Shown: positions 4,219-12,920 of the stretch, one piece after another | Layout of the letters: every line of letters begins with the position of its first letter | Numbering within the stretch: the first letter of the stretch is position 1 | Notes under the pieces: generated by a model | What the model was told of the DNA's origin: nothing | Databases searched by the model: none | Seen by the model: only the letters and a program-made list of their open reading frames with translations | DNA from: Dehalogenimonas sp. WBC-2 | GTDB taxonomy: Bacteria > Chloroflexota > Dehalococcoidia > Dehalococcoidales > Dehalococcoidaceae | Reading direction: 5' to 3' | Assembly: GCA_001005265.1 (NCBI GenBank) | Contig: CP011392.1 | Span: 1,361,902-1,425,901 of the forward strand | DNA length: 64,000 nucleotides | Made by a program: the position numbers and the translations under genes

Positions 4219-7200
4219 TTATGCCGGAATAAGAACCGTTGACACCATGTCAGATAATTCATCCAGATCGTAATTCTTGACCATAATACCCTTCTTGGGA
4301 CAGGTTGCCATACAAACGCCGCAACCATGACACAGGGCTGGATCGGATTCCACCGTCTTTTTAATGACACCCTTATAAGCATATTCAATCAGGGTGATAG
4401 CGTCATACGGACAGGGATCAACGCAATAGGCGCAACCATCACAATTATCATCCAGCACTTCAGACACGCAGGCATCAAGCTGTATCTGATCTCTGGAAAG
4501 AATAGCCATAGCCTTGGCAGCGGCTGCACCGGCCTGGGCAATAGATTCATCTGCCAACTTCGGCCCATGAGCCAGTCCGGCTAGAAAAACGCCCTCAACA
4601 AGAGAGTCCACCGGTCTCAACTTGATATGAGCCTCCATTAGGAAGCCGTCTTCGGAATGCGGTAGCTTCATTAGCTTGGCCAGGCTCTGATCTGCATCGG
4701 GTATAATACCAGCTGACAGGACAACCAATTCGGTTGGGATTTTCAATTTTGCTTTCAATATAGGGTCAACAACTGAAACACTAAGTTTATCGCTGAGGTT
4801 AGTTACCACCGGTCTTTCGTTTTCTTTGTAACGGAGGAAACGTACGCCGAGCTTGCGGGCACGACTGTATTCAGCTTCATGAAGGCTATACGCCCGGATG
4901 TCCCTATACATTATGAAAACCTCAGTCTCAGGCTGACGCGCTTTAAGTTTCACCGCATTCTTGATGGCCTGAACGCAACACAGACGGCTGCAATACGGAT
5001 GATCCTCATTACGCGACCCAACGCATTGAATCATCACCACCGTCCGGGCAGCGATCTTTTCATTGGCTAAGCGCTCTTCCAACTCCAATTGCGTTATGAC
5101 CCGCGGATCTTGCCCATACAGATATTCAGACGGCTTATACTCGGAGGCACCTGAAGCTACGATGGCAGCACCCACTTTAATCTTGTGTGCCTTTCCTTCA
5201 GTATTGAATTCGACCGCAAAATTGCCGGATGAGCCATCAAATGCAGTTACAGAAGTATTGAAATGCAATTCTATATTAGGGTGTACCTTGATACGTTCGG
5301 TCATTTCTTTAAGTTTGGTTTGTGGCTCCTCACCGGGTTCCCCAAACTTCACGCGTCGTAAATTACCGCCAAGTTCATCCGTTTTCTCAAGAAGATAGGT
5401 CTTGTAACCGGCATCGGCAAGGTCAAGGGCAGCCGTCATACCGGCCAGACCGCCTCCAATAACCAGCCCGTCATTGCATACTGAAACATGTCCCGGGTAG
5501 AGGGGTTTGAGGTGAGTTGCCTTGACCGTCGCCAGACGGATAATATCTTTGGCTTTAGCTGTAGCTTCAGCCGGCTGATTCATATGCACCCATGAACATT
5601 GGTTGCGGATATTGGCAATTTCCAGCAAATATGGGTTGAGTCCGGCCTCACGCATGGTATCCTGGAACAATCCTTCATGAGTGCGGGGCGTGCAGGCGGC
5701 GATGACCACCCTGTTTAAATCATGTTCGATAATAGCTTGTTTGATCTTCTCTCCGGCATCGGTAGCACAGGCAAAAAGGGTATCGGTAACATAAGCCACA
5801 TTCGGTATAGTATTGGCGTAATCTACAACCTCAGGGATATTGACTACCGAGGATATATTTTTCCCGCAGTGGCAAACAAATACACCTGTCCGAAGTCCAC
5901 CTTCACCTTGTGTCCGCTCCTCAGGATATGTCCGCTCCGTAAGCAACTCACCTTTTTTGTCGGCTAAAAGCGCCAACACCTTGGAGGCAGCCGCGCCAGC
6001 CTGAATAACCGTTTCCGGTATATCTTTAGGCCCAGTGAAAACACCGACAGCATAAATGCCTTCTTTAGTAGTGGTTACCGGGTCCAATCCATCAGTGACA
6101 CAAAAACCATCCGGGGTCAATTTGACGTCAAACTTCTTCGCCAGAGCTTGACCGGATTTTGACGGACGTAACCCACAGGAAAGATTTACCAGTTCAAAGT
6201 TTTCTTCATTCAGTTGACCTTGCTCATCCTGGTAACGGATAACTATTTCATTGCTCAAAGGTATTTGCTTAAGGGACGATGGTTGACAACGGATATAACG
6301 GACACCGGCTTTCACGGCCCGTTCATAATAGGATTCAAACCCCTTGCCATATGCCCTGATATCAATGAAGAAGATTGCGACATCTATTTCAGGGTGGTGT
6401 TCTTTCAAAATCAGCGCTTCTTTGGTGGCATACATGCAGCATACCGCGGAACAAAAATCAGCCTCGGTTTCCCTAGAACCGACGCACTGGATAAAAGCTA
6501 CCTTGCGCGGTAATTGCTTGTTTGAAAGGCGCATCACTTCACCGGCAGAAGGGCCAGAGGCTGAAAGCATACGCTCAAATTGCAGGCTGGTCAGCACATC
6601 AGGATAACGGCCGTAACCTAACTGCGGTTTTTCCGAGGCATCAAACAAGTCATAACCGGGCGCTAATATAACAGCACCGACATTAAGTTCTAATTCTTCA
6701 TCTTGCTGATCCAGAAGAATGGCACCAGCCTCGCAGAACTTTTCACAGGCGCGACACCCTTTGCCTTTTTTAAAGTAGATACAGCTATCTTTATCAATTA
6801 TCGGTACATTGGGCACCGCTTGGGCGTAAAGCGTATATATCGCCTTACGCTTGGACAGACCATGGTCAAACTCATTGGTAGTTTTAGCCGGACACTTTTC
6901 AATACAAACATTACAGCCAGTGCATTTGTCTTCATCAACGAAGCGGGCCTTCTGTAGTATTTTAACTCTAAAATTCCCGGCTTCACCTTTGTAGCTCACA
7001 ACACTGGCATTTGTAAGAAGTTCAATATTAAGATGACGGTCAATGGAAACCAGACGGGGTGATACGGTGCACATGGCGCAGTCATTGGTTGGAAAGGTTT
7101 TATCCAACTCAACCATTTTACCGCCGATAGCCGGGGCTTCATCCAATAGATAAACTTTGATGCCGGCTTCAGCCAGATCAAGTGCCGCCTGCATACCGCC

Positions 7201-7251
7201 AACACCACCACCAACCACCAGTGCAGCCCCGACTTTAGTCTTGTCAACCAT
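4219..7251 (-). CDS. hdrA: HdrA-like bifurcating flavoprotein with tandem HdrA modules
   Basis: At 1010 residues this is well above the roughly 650 of methanogen HdrA. Order of parts: an FAD-binding GGGVGGMQAA motif near residue 14; a CxxC at 58-61; a ferredoxin cluster CTGCNVCIEKC at 110-120; a second cysteine group at 157-173 (CRACEKFC); CVGSRE with CSAVCC; then a second module beginning with VFVCHCGKN, a second FAD motif GGGLAGMTAA near residue 595, another CVGSRN with CSRLCC; and a C-terminal pair of [4Fe-4S] sites at 937-947 and 974-984. In the known MvhADG-HdrABC complex HdrA holds the FAD that splits electron pairs between ferredoxin and the HdrB disulfide site. Here two FADs are expected. 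It is two bases downstream of hdrB. Confidence 0.93.
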   Translation of the reverse strand: MVDKTKVGAALVVGGGVGGMQAALDLAEAGIKVYLLDEAPAIGGKMVELDKTFPTNDCAMCTVSPRLVSIDRHLNIELLTNASVVSYKGEAGNFRVKILQKARFVDEDKCTGCNVCIEKCPAKTTNEFDHGLSKRKAIYTLYAQAVPNVPIIDKDSCIYFKKGKGCRACEKFCEAGAILLDQQDEELELNVGAVILAPGYDLFDASEKPQLGYGRYPDVLTSLQFERMLSASGPSAGEVMRLSNKQLPRKVAFIQCVGSRETEADFCSAVCCMYATKEALILKEHHPEIDVAIFFIDIRAYGKGFESYYERAVKAGVRYIRCQPSSLKQIPLSNEIVIRYQDEQGQLNEENFELVNLSCGLRPSKSGQALAKKFDVKLTPDGFCVTDGLDPVTTTKEGIYAVGVFTGPKDIPETVIQAGAAASKVLALLADKKGELLTERTYPEERTQGEGGLRTGVFVCHCGKNISSVVNIPEVVDYANTIPNVAYVTDTLFACATDAGEKIKQAIIEHDLNRVVIAACTPRTHEGLFQDTMREAGLNPYLLEIANIRNQCSWVHMNQPAEATAKAKDIIRLATVKATHLKPLYPGHVSVCNDGLVIGGGLAGMTAALDLADAGYKTYLLEKTDELGGNLRRVKFGEPGEEPQTKLKEMTERIKVHPNIELHFNTSVTAFDGSSGNFAVEFNTEGKAHKIKVGAAIVASGASEYKPSEYLYGQDPRVITQLELEERLANEKIAARTVVMIQCVGSRNEDHPYCSRLCCVQAIKNAVKLKARQPETEVFIMYRDIRAYSLHEAEYSRARKLGVRFLRYKENERPVVTNLSDKLSVSVVDPILKAKLKIPTELVVLSAGIIPDADQSLAKLMKLPHSEDGFLMEAHIKLRPVDSLVEGVFLAGLAHGPKLADESIAQAGAAAAKAMAILSRDQIQLDACVSEVLDDNCDGCAYCVDPCPYDAITLIEYAYKGVIKKTVESDPALCHGCGVCMATCPKKGIMVKNYDLDELSDMVSTVLIPA

Positions 7252-7253
7252 GC

Positions 7254-8120
7254 TTAAGCTGCCCTCGCCAGAACTTTTTCAGATTCAACAAAATGTTTAC
7301 CCAGCATCAATTCCCGTTCTGGCACACCAAGAGCCAGGGCAATAAGCTCGGTGAAATAATAGATTGGCATTTCATATGTCTTGCCTTGTTTGGCTAAATC
7401 TTCTTGACGGATATCGAGATTCAATTGACAAAAAGTGCAGGGCACCGCAACAGCGGAGGCGCCAACTGCCTTGGCATCATCCAGAATGCGCGATGTCAAC
7501 TTCATCACTGCATCAGGGCGGGTGATAGAAAGAGAACCGCCGCAACACTCCACTTTATGAGACCAGTCCAGAGTGGGGATACCAACGGCGTTGAGTATCT
7601 TATCCATTGTCATGGGGTATTCAGGATTGTCCCGAAACCCGGTTTGACTATGAGGACGTACCAAAAGGCAACCGTAGTAGCTGACTATCTTTAAATGAGA
7701 TAAATCCCGCTTGACCAGACTCTTTAAGCGGGTAAGATTTTCTTCCATGGCCAGTATTTCCAACGGGTGCAATACTGAAATAGGGCGTTCAAACTTATGC
7801 TCGATTATCTCTTCAATTTCATGTTTAAGTCTCAGGTCACCTTTATCTTCAAACTGAGCCACCTTGAAACGGTTATAACAGGCCGTGCAGGGAACAATAA
7901 CTTCAGACAGTCCCATCTTGTCTATCTCTGCCAGGTTCTTAAGCGGCAGGGTGTCGGCTAGTAGTACGGAAGCATTATGAGCTAATGTCGAACCGCAACA
8001 AACCCAGTTCTTGGGTTCTTCCAGTTCTATTCCCATTGCCTTGAAAACCTTTTGCAATGAATGGTTATATTCCTTGCCGGTAGTACGCAAGGAGCAACTG
8101 TTATAATAGGCGTATTTCAT
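7254..8120 (-). CDS. hdrB: HdrB-like subunit with two complete CCG domains
   Basis: This 288-residue protein has both cysteine-rich CCG domains that hold the pair of non-cubane [4Fe-4S] clusters in HdrB. Domain one has Cys9, then VCCGST, then PCTACYNRF. Domain two has YYGCLL, then VECCGGS, then PCTFCQLNLD. Because every ligand position is kept, the catalytic disulfide-reducing type of site should be intact. In methanogens the substrate is CoM-S-S-CoB; no sign of that coenzyme pair exists here, so the acceptor is unknown. The start codon overlaps the hdrC stop by four bases (ATGA), indicating translational coupling. Confidence 0.93.
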   Translation of the reverse strand: MKYAYYNSCSLRTTGKEYNHSLQKVFKAMGIELEEPKNWVCCGSTLAHNASVLLADTLPLKNLAEIDKMGLSEVIVPCTACYNRFKVAQFEDKGDLRLKHEIEEIIEHKFERPISVLHPLEILAMEENLTRLKSLVKRDLSHLKIVSYYGCLLVRPHSQTGFRDNPEYPMTMDKILNAVGIPTLDWSHKVECCGGSLSITRPDAVMKLTSRILDDAKAVGASAVAVPCTFCQLNLDIRQEDLAKQGKTYEMPIYYFTELIALALGVPERELMLGKHFVESEKVLARAA

Positions 8121-8707
8121 GAACCAGCCAGCTCCCGTTCTTTCTTGGCAACTTTTGCAAAGAGTTTTTTCATCTCACGGGAATTCTGGAAATGAGGCAC
8201 CAAATCCAGCTTGCCTTTACTGAGCATCCGTAACCCCATATTCATATCCCGGCTAAGAGTACCGGTTCTTATGCTTAATAAACCCGCCACACCAGCTTCA
8301 TACATCATCCCAAAATTTTTCACTAGGGAAAGTCCGGTTTTATAAAACTCAGCAACCGCTGGTTCCTTGGGCGTAATACCCTGTTTTATGGCGATATTCG
8401 ACAGTGCATCCATTAACATCAGCAAACCTGTTCCCTGAGGACAACGGCCAGTACACATGCCACACGCCACGCAAAGCCAATAAGTATTGCTATTCAGCAC
8501 CGTGTCTTTAAGTCCCAGCCGAACCGCATGTATCACCTGCGTCGGCGTCATATCCATGAACTCAGTTAGAGGACAACCGCTGGTACATTTACTGCACTGG
8601 AAGCACATGTTAACATCCACGCCATGAAGAGCTTTGATATTGGAGGCAAATTCGCTGACGTGTCCAGGAGTCAACTCATATTCGGGGATAGCGCTAATTT
8701 CAGTCAT
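8117..8707 (-). CDS. hdrC: HdrC-like ferredoxin subunit
   Basis: This 196-residue protein carries two [4Fe-4S] motifs, CFQCSKCTSGCP and CVACGMCTGRCP, and relays electrons between HdrA and HdrB in the family. It has no transmembrane segment, so it is the soluble form rather than an HdrE-linked form. It is the first gene of the operon: a strong promoter lies at 8790-8818, giving a leader of about 75 bases. An AAGG sequence nine bases before ATG serves as a ribosome-binding site. Confidence 0.93.
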   Translation of the reverse strand: MTEISAIPEYELTPGHVSEFASNIKALHGVDVNMCFQCSKCTSGCPLTEFMDMTPTQVIHAVRLGLKDTVLNSNTYWLCVACGMCTGRCPQGTGLLMLMDALSNIAIKQGITPKEPAVAEFYKTGLSLVKNFGMMYEAGVAGLLSIRTGTLSRDMNMGLRMLSKGKLDLVPHFQNSREMKKLFAKVAKKERELAGS

Positions 8708-8828: not shown

Positions 8829-10217
8829 CTACAAAACACTGTTTCCCAAGAACTTCAACAGGTATCCGGATTCCAGGTGATAACCGGATTCTCTGTAGTA
8901 GCCCCGTGCGCCGATGCCGGATAACACGGCCAGCCATGACACATCAAACTCATGACGAGCAATCCGCTCGGCTTCCAATAAAAGGTGACGGCCATAACCA
9001 CGGTGCTGAGCGCTGCTATCATCGCGTTGCCCTATTTCAAGTTCGGCACCATAGACATGAAGCTCACGCACCAGCGCAACGGCTCCATGAACTGAATTTA
9101 AGCCCAATGGTTTATCATCTTGAATTCTTAAGCGCAAAAGTCCAAATAGCGTACTATTATCGTCCTCATAGGACAAAAAGAGCTCCTGACCGTCTCCCGC
9201 TTCATATTCTAAGCGCCGTAATGAAGGAGTCCCGATTGAAGCTTTTTGTCTTACCCGATGACCATACTCACGGCACCGGATACAGCGGCAGGCAGAGCCT
9301 TCCCGGGTCAGACGCTCCTGAACGGCATCCCGCATAGAATTTTTCAGACCGCCGACGATGTACTCCGCCGGAATATCGCGTAGCACTCTGGAAATACGTA
9401 CATAGGGTGGTACGATCTTCTTCATTTCTGCGATGAGAGCGGTCATAACCTCGTCTGAATAGGGTCTGTAACGTCCATTACACTGCCATTTCTCCAGTTC
9501 TGTGCCCTCAACTACCATCGTGGGATAAATCTTTAATCCGTCGGGGCGATACGAAGGATCTTCAAATAGTTGCCGGGTAAGTTCAAGATCATGTTCCGGA
9601 TTAGATCCAGGTAATCCCGGCATCCAATGATAATGAACTTTCAGGCCAGCGTTCCTCAGCCTGCGAGTAGCATCGGTAACGGCGGCAGTATTATGACCAC
9701 GACGAACGATCTCGTAAATGTTATCGTCGAGGGTCTGAACGCCCAACTCCACCCTGGTCGTACCCCATCTGGTCATCCGGTCGATATCGTCATCATCACA
9801 GACATCAGGCCGGGTTTCTATACACAAACCCACAGCACGATCGGCCGCAGTTTCGTTGAAGCTTTGCGCTTCGGCCAGGGTTTCGCTTTCATAACCATTA
9901 AGAGCATCAAAGCAGGCTTTGATGAAGCCGTTTTGATATTCGACAGGTGTGGACAGAAAAGTACCACCCATTATGATAAGCTCTACTTTATCCGTCGGAT
10001 GGCCCATGTCTTTTAATATCCGCAGGCGCAGAGTCACCTGCTTGGCCGGATCATAGTCCCGGGTGGCAGCCCGCAGCACCGCTGGAGAATGGGGTGTGTA
10101 ACTCCGAGGCGTATCGGCGAAATCCGGGCAATAGATGCATTGACCGGGACAGGGCGCCGGCCGGGTCACAACAGCTATGGGAGTAACGCCGGAAATTGTC
10201 CGGGTAAGCTTTTTCAT
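8829..10217 (-). CDS. elp3: Elp3-family tRNA uridine-34 modifying radical SAM acetyltransferase
   Basis: This 462-residue protein has the two-domain layout of Elp3: an N-terminal radical SAM domain with CPGQCIYC (Cys23, Cys27, Cys30) and a C-terminal GNAT acetyltransferase domain with the acetyl-CoA loop around HRGYGRHLL and the GYYRESGYHLE tail. Elp3 uses acetyl-CoA and SAM to put a carboxymethyl group on U34 of certain tRNAs. Bacterial examples are sparse, and a Dehalococcoides mccartyi Elp3 has been studied structurally. The cysteine spacing C-x3-C-x2-C is shorter than in eukaryotes. A TATAAT box lies nine bases before the ATG, while GGAG also precedes it. The gene is divergent, with 42 bases between starts, from a Trm9-like methyltransferase. 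Confidence 0.92.
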   Translation of the reverse strand: MKKLTRTISGVTPIAVVTRPAPCPGQCIYCPDFADTPRSYTPHSPAVLRAATRDYDPAKQVTLRLRILKDMGHPTDKVELIIMGGTFLSTPVEYQNGFIKACFDALNGYESETLAEAQSFNETAADRAVGLCIETRPDVCDDDDIDRMTRWGTTRVELGVQTLDDNIYEIVRRGHNTAAVTDATRRLRNAGLKVHYHWMPGLPGSNPEHDLELTRQLFEDPSYRPDGLKIYPTMVVEGTELEKWQCNGRYRPYSDEVMTALIAEMKKIVPPYVRISRVLRDIPAEYIVGGLKNSMRDAVQERLTREGSACRCIRCREYGHRVRQKASIGTPSLRRLEYEAGDGQELFLSYEDDNSTLFGLLRLRIQDDKPLGLNSVHGAVALVRELHVYGAELEIGQRDDSSAQHRGYGRHLLLEAERIARHEFDVSWLAVLSGIGARGYYRESGYHLESGYLLKFLGNSVL

Positions 10218-10226
10218 CTATACTCC

Positions 10227-10232
10227 ATTATA
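10227..10232 (-). promoter_or_regulatory. -10 box of elp3, nine bases before the start codon
   Basis: TATAAT on the minus strand ends nine bases from the elp3 ATG, so transcription would start two or three bases before the start codon. A clear -35 box is not visible. The GGAG sequence between box and ATG would not be transcribed from this promoter. Confidence 0.45.
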
Positions 10233-10259
10233 TCTTAATTTCTCAATCGATGGAAGATT

Positions 10260-10916
10260 ATGTCAATTGATTCGCAGCCTGATTTCGACCAAATTGCCGC
10301 GGGTTGGTACAGTTTCCGGCATCACACTATCTTCAAAAAAGAATTAACCGAACTTTCGGCGCGCTGGAAAACCGGCAAACTGCTTAATGCGGGCTGTGGT
10401 CACGGCGCCGATTTCCTGCCGTTTGAAAATACGTTCGACCTTTACGGTATTGATATCTCTTCGGAGATGTTGAAATTCGGGGAGAAATTCGCCAGGAAGC
10501 ACACTTTCAAAGCGGAACTCAAACAGGCAGACATGCGCTCCATCCCCTACCCGGACGAATGTTTTGACAACGCCATCGTGGTGGCCAGTTTGCATCACGT
10601 CAAAACCAGGTCAGGACAACTCAAAGCCCTCGCCGAAATACGAAGAGTGCTCAAACCAGGCGGCGAAGCTTTTGTGACCGTTTGGAATGCCACCCAACCG
10701 CGTTTCTTTTTCACCAGACGCGACACACAAATACCCTGGCGCCAGGGCGCCGACACCATCTTGCGCTATTATCATCTCTTCACCTACGGTGAGATCCAAC
10801 GGCTGGCCAAATCCGCCGGGTTCGACATCATCTATTGCAGGCCGGAGTCCCGCTACAACTTTCCTTTTAAATATTTTTCCCGAAATATCTGTCTGCTGCT
10901 TAAAAAGCCAAGCTAA
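10260..10916 (+). CDS. SAM-dependent methyltransferase resembling Trm9/ALKBH8
   Basis: This 218-residue class I methyltransferase has motif I NAGCGHGADF, an acidic end of strand two at YGIDIS, and motif IV-like ASLHHVKTRSGQLKALAEI. Beyond the generic fold it resembles the eukaryotic/archaeal Trm9-ALKBH8 family: the entry motif FRHHTIF before the SAM site, VTVWNATQPRF, an IPWRQG segment, and the near-C-terminal RYYHLFTYGEIQRLAKSAGF, close to the RYYHLYREGEL signature of yeast Trm9 as I recall it. Trm9 methylates the cm5U made by Elp3 to mcm5U. Finding it divergent from elp3 strengthens this reading. It could still be a generic methyltransferase acting on a small molecule. Confidence 0.72.
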   Translation: MSIDSQPDFDQIAAGWYSFRHHTIFKKELTELSARWKTGKLLNAGCGHGADFLPFENTFDLYGIDISSEMLKFGEKFARKHTFKAELKQADMRSIPYPDECFDNAIVVASLHHVKTRSGQLKALAEIRRVLKPGGEAFVTVWNATQPRFFFTRRDTQIPWRQGADTILRYYHLFTYGEIQRLAKSAGFDIIYCRPESRYNFPFKYFSRNICLLLKKPS

Positions 10917-10987: not shown

Positions 10988-11209
10988 ATGCTGGTCAATA
11001 TTACATGCCCCAAGTGCAACACTAGCGGCGGATTTTCCATCAGCGACGAGCGCTACATCGGCCCGTACCGGTGCTGGAAATGCCGCGCCGCCATGAAGAT
11101 CCATCTGGAGAAGAACAGCCTTGAGAGCTGCGAACTGATGACCGAAGAAGAATTCGGCAAATTTGAGCAGGAGATGGAAATCCGGCGCCGCGCCCGCGGC
11201 GGCAAATAA
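10988..11209 (+). CDS. Small zinc-ribbon protein
   Basis: This 73-residue protein has two CxxC knuckles, CPKC and CWKC, 25 residues apart, and a charged, arginine-rich C-terminal helix. A strong ribosome-binding site (AAGGAG, seven bases before ATG) fixes the start. It follows the Trm9-like gene by 71 bases on the same strand. Its size and fold class are comparable to Trm112, the zinc-ribbon activator of Trm9, but I do not see clear Trm112 sequence features, so partnership is speculative. Confidence 0.75.
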   Translation: MLVNITCPKCNTSGGFSISDERYIGPYRCWKCRAAMKIHLEKNSLESCELMTEEEFGKFEQEMEIRRRARGGK

Positions 11210-11323: not shown

Positions 11324-11521
11324 ATGCCGGTAGTTATTGTGGAAATGCATGAAGGACGCACCATTGCCCAAAAAAAACAGCTTGCCGCAGGTATCACCGC
11401 AGAATTTGAAAAGATCGGCACCGCTCCTGAGAAGGTGACTATCATCTTCAAAGACGTCCCCAAATATAATTGGGCCAGCGGGGGCAAGCTGGCGGCCGAA
11501 TCCGGAATCAGACCTCTTTAG
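11324..11521 (+). CDS. 4-oxalocrotonate tautomerase family protein
   Basis: This 65-residue protein starts MPVVIVEMHEGRT. After removal of the initiator methionine, Pro1 would be the catalytic base of the tautomerase family, and the size equals the short hexameric 4-OT type. The helix QKKQLAAGITAEFEKIG and the following strand KVTIIFKDVP fit the beta-alpha-beta fold. A ribosome-binding site AAGGAG lies eight bases upstream. The natural substrate cannot be read from the sequence. The 3' end overlaps the convergent rimI gene by 14 bases. Confidence 0.87.
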   Translation: MPVVIVEMHEGRTIAQKKQLAAGITAEFEKIGTAPEKVTIIFKDVPKYNWASGGKLAAESGIRPL

Positions 11522-12119
11522 CTTCAAGCTCAAGCGCCTGCCGAGCCGCAGCGATTTTGGCGCAGCACTCTGGAGACGTGGCATCGTCCAGGGTCATGAT
11601 CAAGGCATCCTCGCGGTTGTCGGTGTAATACGCCCGCCTCACGCCCTTACCAACAAAGCCGTATTTGAGGTACAGCCGCTGCGCCTCATAGTTGGATACT
11701 CGAACCTCAAGGGTAATGCATTCGGATTGCTGTTTTATGGCCTCATCCATAAGAGCCAGAAGCAGGAGTTGACCTAAACCCTGCCGCCGGCGCTCACTTT
11801 TTACCGCCAGACTGATAATATGTGCCTCAGAAGCCATGATCCAGAAACCGGCAAAACCGATGATCTTTCCTTTATGGTTGCTGCTATGATCCGGCATCAG
11901 CCATTTTTTTACCCTGCCCGGAAGCCCGGTATTTTCGGGAATACTTTCTTCATCCGGCGAAGCAGGAATGTTCTCAACGGCGACAATATAGTGAGCCAGC
12001 AGATTATCCAGTTCACGCTGATAATTCATCGGGGGCCACATGGTGGGAAAGGCCTCCCGGTCAATAGCGGTAACCTGGGCAATATCGTCGCGGCACATCC
12101 GCCGTATTATATATGGCAT
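11508..12119 (-). CDS. rimI: RimI-like GNAT N-acetyltransferase
   Basis: The start at 12119 (protein MPYIIRRM, 203 residues) is preferred over an upstream one because AGGAG lies five bases before it. GNAT features are clear: IISLAVKSERRRQGLGQLLL for acetyl-CoA binding, LEVRVSNYEAQRLYLKYGF for the C-terminal part, and ALIMTLDD at the end. RimI acetylates the N-terminal alanine of ribosomal protein S18. The protein is about 50 residues longer than typical RimI because of an insertion near residues 50-80 between ENIPASPDEES and HKGKIIGFAG. TsaB, which often neighbours rimI, is elsewhere in this window (60 kb). Confidence 0.8.
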   Translation of the reverse strand: MPYIIRRMCRDDIAQVTAIDREAFPTMWPPMNYQRELDNLLAHYIVAVENIPASPDEESIPENTGLPGRVKKWLMPDHSSNHKGKIIGFAGFWIMASEAHIISLAVKSERRRQGLGQLLLLALMDEAIKQQSECITLEVRVSNYEAQRLYLKYGFVGKGVRRAYYTDNREDALIMTLDDATSPECCAKIAAARQALELEAKEV

Positions 12120-12329
12120 GATTACTCCTGTGCCTGCCATTTTAGCACAGGAGCGGCACACGGAAAATAGTTTATTTGTGTCGGCAGGATATTGAGCAAC
12201 AAGTTCCGAACCATAAAAAAGTAAAAAATATCAAATCCAAAAGGGCAAAGGGTGAACCGGCGAATTGTTTTGACACAAATAGCTGTTTTTTGGCACCTGA
12301 AGTTTTGATTCAAAGCAACAATTCGGCTC

Positions 12330-12920
12330 TCAATCTTCGGTGAGGTCATCTCTTGTGGTTTGTGCTCCGGAGTTGACTGCCAACAATTCCGAATCATGCC
12401 CGAAGCGCTCGTACTCACTATAAAGGCACCCGCAGTACTGCTGGCGGTAAAGCTCCAGCGGTTTGGTCATACAACGGCTGTCAGAGTAACGCTTACGCAG
12501 GTCGGCATATTCAAATCGCACGCCGGATGAGGCTTCAGCGGCACAGGCGGCCTCGATAATGCGGTCATGTTGCTGCCTATGGCTGATGAGGAGGCTTGAA
12601 GTGAAGACGTCGAAGCCGTTGGCGGCATAGGCGGCCGTTGCATCAAGCCTAAGCCGGTAGCAGTCCGGGCAGCGGTCAGTTTCATGTCCGGCGACAGCCC
12701 GGAAATATTTTTCCAGGTCGTATCCCGGCGCAACGATGAAAGGGATAGATTCGCGTTGGGCGAAGGATTCCATGGCCTCCCGTCGCTGTTCATGTTCCAT
12801 GAAAGGATGGATATTGGGGTTATACCAGAAAGCGGTAACGTCAAAACCCTGCTGCCGCCAGTACACCAGGGTGTAGGCGGAGCAATGGACGCAGCAGCAG
12901 TGAACCAGCAGTTTAGCTAT
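12330..12920 (-). CDS. queH: Epoxyqueuosine reductase QueH, probably with a non-standard start
   Basis: QueH (formerly DUF208) performs the last step of queuosine synthesis, reducing epoxyqueuosine in tRNA. The family motifs are present: RCPDCYRLRL, LLISHRQQHD and the YCGCLYSEYERF end. The first ATG/GTG/TTG in frame is the GTG at 12866, but that would remove the essential N-terminal cysteine motif. Reading upstream in the same frame gives AKLLVHCCCVHCSAYTLV, the expected QueH N-terminus, with no standard start codon before the stop at 12933-12935. The best initiation codon is ATA at 12918-12920, eight bases after GAAAGG. The 196-residue length then fits the family. Confidence 0.85.
   Translation of the reverse strand: MAKLLVHCCCVHCSAYTLVYWRQQGFDVTAFWYNPNIHPFMEHEQRREAMESFAQRESIPFIVAPGYDLEKYFRAVAGHETDRCPDCYRLRLDATAAYAANGFDVFTSSLLISHRQQHDRIIEAACAAEASSGVRFEYADLRKRYSDSRCMTKPLELYRQQYCGCLYSEYERFGHDSELLAVNSGAQTTRDDLTED

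Follow-up and report, generated by a model that had tools for sequence, protein, structure and literature searches.

In yeast and humans, Elp3 and Trm9 both modify the decoding base of tRNA, and in eukaryotes and archaea Elp3 makes cm5U34, which is methylated by Trm9. The usual U34 enzymes of bacteria are MnmE and MnmG. According to a 2017 review, homologues of Trm9 and other Trm112-dependent methyltransferases had gone undetected in bacteria (PMC5372719), and a 2020 review located bacterial Elp3 in Dehalococcoides alone, with no direct evidence of xcm5U34 derivatives in Elp3-bearing bacteria (PMC7663514). The stretch of DNA analysed here (the window, 64,000 nucleotides of Dehalogenimonas sp. 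WBC-2) carries an elp3 gene and, divergent from it, a gene for a methyltransferase, which raises the question of whether a bacterium may possess both steps. We consider it very likely that the two genes represent a bacterial version of the eukaryotic and archaeal wobble-uridine pathway, in which Elp3 would make cm5U34 and the methyltransferase would convert it to mcm5U34.

The initial annotation had placed the two genes on opposite strands, 42 bases apart, and both open reading frames were found in this arrangement, the 42 bases separating their start codons (Table 1). A promoter search of the gap gave one weak sigma-70-like match (10196-10224), which was not above chance.

Table 1. Features of the divergent pair, in window coordinates
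Feature	Position	Strand	Basis
elp3, radical SAM and GNAT enzyme, 462 aa, predicted tRNA uridine(34) cm5U synthase	8829..10217	-	TIGR01211, DmcElp3 alignment
Elp3 acetyltransferase domain stretch with E385 and Y440 (DmcElp3 E386 and Y441)	8898..9065	-	DmcElp3 alignment
Elp3 radical SAM cysteines C23, C27, C30 (CX3CX2C)	10128..10151	-	same as in DmcElp3
Divergent intergenic region, 42 bases, between both start codons	10218..10259	.	ORF coordinates
Trm9-like class I SAM methyltransferase, 218 aa, predicted cm5U34 carboxyl methyltransferase	10260..10916	+	PDB profile matches, structure model
R20, counterpart of tRNA-binding yeast Trm9 R29	10317..10319	+	invariant; spacing to SAM motif equals that of Trm9 within one residue
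SAM-binding motif GCGHG, residues 45-49	10392..10406	+	sequence, Pfam, family alignment
H112-H113, counterpart of Trm9 H115 and its neighbour	10593..10598	+	invariant; aligned with Trm9
R169, Y170, Y171, counterparts of Trm9 R241 and Y243	10764..10772	+	R169 invariant, Y171 in 20/22
N209, possible counterpart of Trm9 N271, start of last strand	10884..10886	+	invariant in family

The product of elp3 exceeds the curated cut-off of TIGR01211 (563.9 bits against 350, over residues 2-456) and carries the Pfam domains Radical_SAM, Radical_SAM_C and Acetyltransf_1. It matches the solved Elp3 of D. mccartyi (DmcElp3, 5l7j) with 655 bits, 293 of the 457 aligned residues (64%) being identical. The roles of the DmcElp3 residues compared were taken from PMC6367351, where E386 and Y441 are described as residues of the acetyl-CoA pocket; in the alignment these two, the CX3CX2C motif, K77, K193 and the Zn cysteines are all kept. 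By sequence, the window protein is a full-length Elp3 with every named catalytic residue, and its identity is unambiguous. In a genome of the D. mccartyi genus (G049), Elp3 equals the crystallised DmcElp3 at 458 of 458 residues and is encoded 71 bases from a gene for a Trm9-like methyltransferase, so that the model bacterial Elp3 also has this neighbour. The neighbour is unmentioned in the Elp3 literature searched, a scope outside which the original 2016 DmcElp3 structure paper lies.

The assignment of the methyltransferase needs more care. Homologues were collected from 148 Dehalococcoidia genomes, and 22 of them were aligned to give a family profile. Against 177,635 PDB sequences this profile had its best match in Yarrowia Trm9 (5cm2_Z), at 81.3 bits; the second match scored 76.9 bits, its alignment being confined to the SAM-binding core. 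A profile of the C-terminal 75 residues, which lacks the SAM core, found Trm9 with an E-value of 1.5e-6 and the next protein at 0.45, Trm9 being the sole PDB match below 0.4. The reverse search, with the Yarrowia PDB chain (5cm2_Z) as Trm9 query, had as its top 24 matches in the 148 genomes the 24 neighbours of elp3 (E 2e-17 to 2e-8, about 31% identity over the core), the neighbour being the best match in every one of the 24 Elp3-positive genomes. By sequence the methyltransferase is thus Trm9-like, as the initial annotation had proposed in likening it to Trm9/ALKBH8.

The fold agrees with this assignment. An AlphaFold2 model (pLDDT 90.6) superimposes on 5cm2_Z with an rmsd of 1.8 A over 172 residues at 27% identity, the lowest rmsd among the 50 structure matches listed, the others of similar Z lying at 2.4 A or above. 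By Foldseek and VIA-align, Z lies near 20-22 for many class I methyltransferases alike, and Trm9 is set apart by rmsd and identity alone. Likewise, Trm9 and the closest other methyltransferases are not told apart by single-sequence hhalign scores, whereas they are by the C-terminal profile. In phylogenetic trees the family groups with Trm9 at 82-87% bootstrap, a moderate support that is weakened by the long branches of OG_L028 and Trm9, and one-clade tests on these trees rejected nothing.

A methyltransferase lying beside elp3 by accident, and belonging to an unrelated small-molecule type such as UbiE, COQ5 or BioC, would have much of this fold as well, since enzymes of that type share it at similar Z. 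Pfam gives generic class I domains alone, including Methyltransf_11 and Ubie_methyltran, of which PF01209 exceeds the low threshold set for it, across residues 17-139, that is, the SAM core. Against such a relationship, every NCBIfam cut-off for UbiE/COQ5/BioC and other families was missed, the UbiE/MenG/COQ5 model TIGR01934 giving 48.2 bits for a cut-off of 158.35, and the C-terminal profile points to Trm9 alone. The comparison of Trm9 with UbiE/COQ5 families suggested in the initial annotation thus came out in favour of Trm9.

Residues provide a further link to Trm9. The motifs from which the resemblance had first been noticed, FRHHTIF (residues 19-25), IPW (158-160) and RYYHLFTYGEI (169-179), are present and conserved in the 22 homologues, among which R20, H112, H113, W142, R169 and N209 are invariant. 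In yeast Trm9, mutation of R29, H115, R241 or Y243 impairs tRNA binding and catalysis (PMC5372719), and the alignments pair these with R20, H112, R169 and Y171 of the window enzyme. For N209 the alignments disagree on whether it falls on Trm9 N271, owing to an insertion. Like yeast Trm9-Trm112 and the methyltransferase domain of human ALKBH8, the window enzyme has the fold, these four residues and the C-terminal lid motif PW...RYYHLY. Unlike them, it has some 11 additional residues ahead of the last strand, is bacterial, and is paired with a single-subunit Elp3 in a genome in which Trm112 was not found.

We then considered how regularly the two genes occur together. Elp3 is above cut-off in 24 of the 148 Dehalococcoidia genomes, and the methyltransferase occurs in exactly those 24 (E 3e-39 or better); the genes adjoin divergently in them, the pair of G076 being broken by contig ends. 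A pairing in 24 of 24 genomes within a sample of 148 is far beyond chance. At 80 further named loci from GTDB genomes, elp3 lies upstream and divergent in 71, the remainder showing another orientation (1), a contig end (3) or no elp3 in the stretch examined (5). The methyltransferase of L046, L048, L097, L099, L104 and L120 is not divergent-adjacent to elp3 within that stretch. Three contigs titled Deltaproteobacteria (L060, L063 and L071) carry a methyltransferase of the Dehalococcoidia type at 57-59% identity, and are probably misnamed MAGs. Gene-neighbour conservation, which the initial annotation had named as a check, therefore holds across Dehalococcoidia and, in an altered form, across Chloroflexota.

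This altered form was seen in a sample of 251 Chloroflexota genomes, where Elp3 was found in 45 and the first methyltransferase family in 21. At 16 of 20 Elp3 loci outside Dehalococcoidia (L150-L168) a second Trm9-like methyltransferase, with the motifs FSATR...LHHIP...QPW...LLDW...RYVH, is divergent to elp3. Whole-genome searches detected it in 23 genomes, all 23 of them Elp3-positive and none having the first family. Either family is thus present in 44 of the 45 Elp3-positive genomes and in none of the 206 Elp3-negative ones; in G320, the one genome to depart from this, the contig ends close to elp3. The two genes can also be apart and still co-occur, by about 640 kb in G305 and on different contigs in G275, G362 and G233, so linkage alone does not explain their association. 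Both families align over 188 columns, including the C-terminal motif. For the second family Trm9 is match number 2 in the PDB and, of the best 60, the only one whose alignment runs on through the C-terminal part; the position of Y243 is mostly V, and it is less certain that this family belongs with Trm9. In Elp3 proteins outside Dehalococcoidia (L150-L167) the radical SAM motif is preceded by about 80 additional N-terminal residues that are absent from Dehalococcoidia Elp3.

These distributions bear on the idea of an accidental neighbour. The pair occurs in all 24 Elp3 genomes of the 148 and nowhere else in that sample, and Trm9-like enzymes accompany Elp3 even when unlinked, as in G305. A small-molecule methyltransferase is therefore strongly disfavoured, and we regard it as highly improbable.

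The distribution of MnmG complements that of Elp3. MnmG was found in 39 of the 148 Dehalococcoidia genomes and in 99 of the 251 Chloroflexota genomes, with zero overlap with Elp3 in both. The chance of such an exclusion would be 3e-4 and 7e-12, respectively, if genomes were independent, which they are not, the pattern being phylogenetically clumped; even so, the 16 families that have Elp3 and the 27 that have MnmG do not overlap. In the window genome (G000) no match to MnmG was obtained at E 1e-20, and the best match to MnmE had 114 bits for a cut-off of 252.6, over the GTPase stretch alone. Neither Elp3 nor MnmG is above cut-off in 85 of the 148 Dehalococcoidia genomes, which implies some wobble-uridine solution as yet unseen.

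Other methyltransferases are also active on U34. CmoM, like Trm9, methylates a carboxyl group on this base. MnmM methylates nm5s2U34 in B. subtilis (PMC12548931). The window enzyme might then be a CmoM- or MnmM-like protein acting on cmo5U or nm5U instead of cm5U, and it does have the fold of CmoM (8joz, Z 20.3, 18% identity), though a fold in common does not decide the matter. The fit to CmoM is poorer, at 2.8 A and 18% identity as against 1.8 A and 27% for Trm9, and the enzyme co-occurs with Elp3. Moreover, because MnmG is absent and the MnmE-profile matches are limited to the GTPase stretch, the nm5U precursor is not expected. We consider a substrate other than cm5U of this kind very unlikely, and retain the Trm9-like reading.

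In eukaryotes, Trm9 requires Trm112. A search with PF03966 gave no match in the window genome (G000) or in G113, G135, G013, G049 and G098, and matched in 120 of the 148 genomes; the negative set takes in two more genomes of the window's genus as well as G013 and G049 of the D. mccartyi genus. As no Trm112 was found by this profile, we name the protein Trm9-like and not a Trm9-Trm112 holoenzyme. If the methyltransferase works in genomes lacking Trm112, it acts either alone or with an unrecognised, possibly very diverged, partner.

The mechanism that we propose is as follows. Elp3, through its radical SAM and acetyl-CoA-binding domains, would carboxymethylate U34 at C5 to give cm5U34, and the divergent methyltransferase would use SAM to methylate the carboxyl group of cm5U34, yielding mcm5U34. 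MnmA, which is present in the window genome, would add the 2-thio group to give mcm5s2U34 on the tRNAs for Lys, Glu and Gln. The pathway would stand in for MnmE-MnmG, missing from this genome. Given the lack of MnmG and MnmE and the presence of MnmA, one would expect mcm5U34 and mcm5s2U34 as products. We infer the substrate of the methyltransferase, the order of the two steps, the product mcm5U and an activity free of Trm112 from the sequences.

The methyltransferase could also act on Elp3-modified tRNA, or at a nearby position, and yet not form mcm5U, for instance if another group were methylated or if cm5U were turned into ncm5U by an unrecognised amidase. Formation of ncm5U34 is likewise known from archaea and yeast (PMC5372719), the identity to Trm9 is modest, and Trm112 was not found. 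Against this, the enzyme retains the residues that orient cm5U34 in Trm9 (R29, H115, R241 and Y243), and what matches Trm9 alone is precisely the Trm9-specific C-terminal lid. We hold such another product to be unlikely, although less so than the two alternatives above, and mcm5U34 remains the preferred product.

Applied to the phylum, the same evidence makes it likely that in a large part of Chloroflexota MnmE-MnmG is replaced by Elp3 and a Trm112-independent enzyme of Trm9 type, in two subfamilies, making mcm5U34 and mcm5s2U34. It is thus probable that Chloroflexota of the Elp3-bearing group produce a tRNA modification so far attributed to eukaryotes and archaea.

Several known systems resemble this one. 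In S. solfataricus elp3 and trm9 are clustered (PMC2584109), which is also our source for archaeal gene order. As in the archaea Sulfolobus and Haloferax, Elp3 occurs here without Elp1, 2 and 4-6, and a haloarchaeal Trm9-like protein has the R, HH, VW and RFYHIY motifs in common with the window methyltransferase. That protein, the only one obtained when plasmids were searched for archaeal Trm9, has no full-length elp3 annotated next to its gene. Unlike the archaeal genes, the window pair is bacterial, divergent and kept over many families, and the thiolase is of the bacterial MnmA type and not Tuc1/Ncs6. B. subtilis MnmL/YtqA and MnmM/YtqB are likewise a bacterial radical SAM protein and a methyltransferase for wobble U34 (PMC12548931). 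They differ in starting from MnmEG products, taking cmnm5U through nm5U to mnm5U, whereas the window genome is without MnmG and its Elp3 has a GNAT domain.

The initial annotation had suggested that such a pair would be a new combination. This has to be narrowed, as clustered elp3-trm9 was known in Sulfolobus (PMC2584109) and the Elp3 of Dehalococcoides was known and solved; what is new is the bacterial partner of Trm9 type and the replacement pattern. No description of a bacterial Trm9 was found in the literature searched, a search outside which most subscription journals lie. The pair predicts the end products mcm5U and mcm5s2U, and names a candidate for the second enzyme of the bacterial Elp3 pathway. 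It may thus be a variant form of a pathway already known, in a domain of life believed to lack the second step. For the Elongator-Trm9 pathway it could provide a single-subunit model, in an organism for which an Elp3 structure exists. In the genomes sampled from one phylum, Elp3 and MnmG exclude each other, as alternative answers to one decoding problem.

Some other genes surround the pair. Directly 3' of the methyltransferase gene lies a small open reading frame (10988-11209, +) of 73 aa with a zinc-ribbon motif CPxC...CWKC; as a stand-in for Trm112 it was rejected, there being no PF03966 match in the window genome. Downstream of elp3, on the same strand, are HdrA-, HdrB- and HdrC-like genes of 1010, 288 and 196 aa (4219-8707, -). 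On the other side, just downstream, are a RimI-like GNAT gene and QueH (11508-12866, -), followed by ruvB. QueH belongs to the queuosine pathway, another pathway of the wobble base, and a GNAT gene of the RimI-like kind is present at 38 of 80 related loci.
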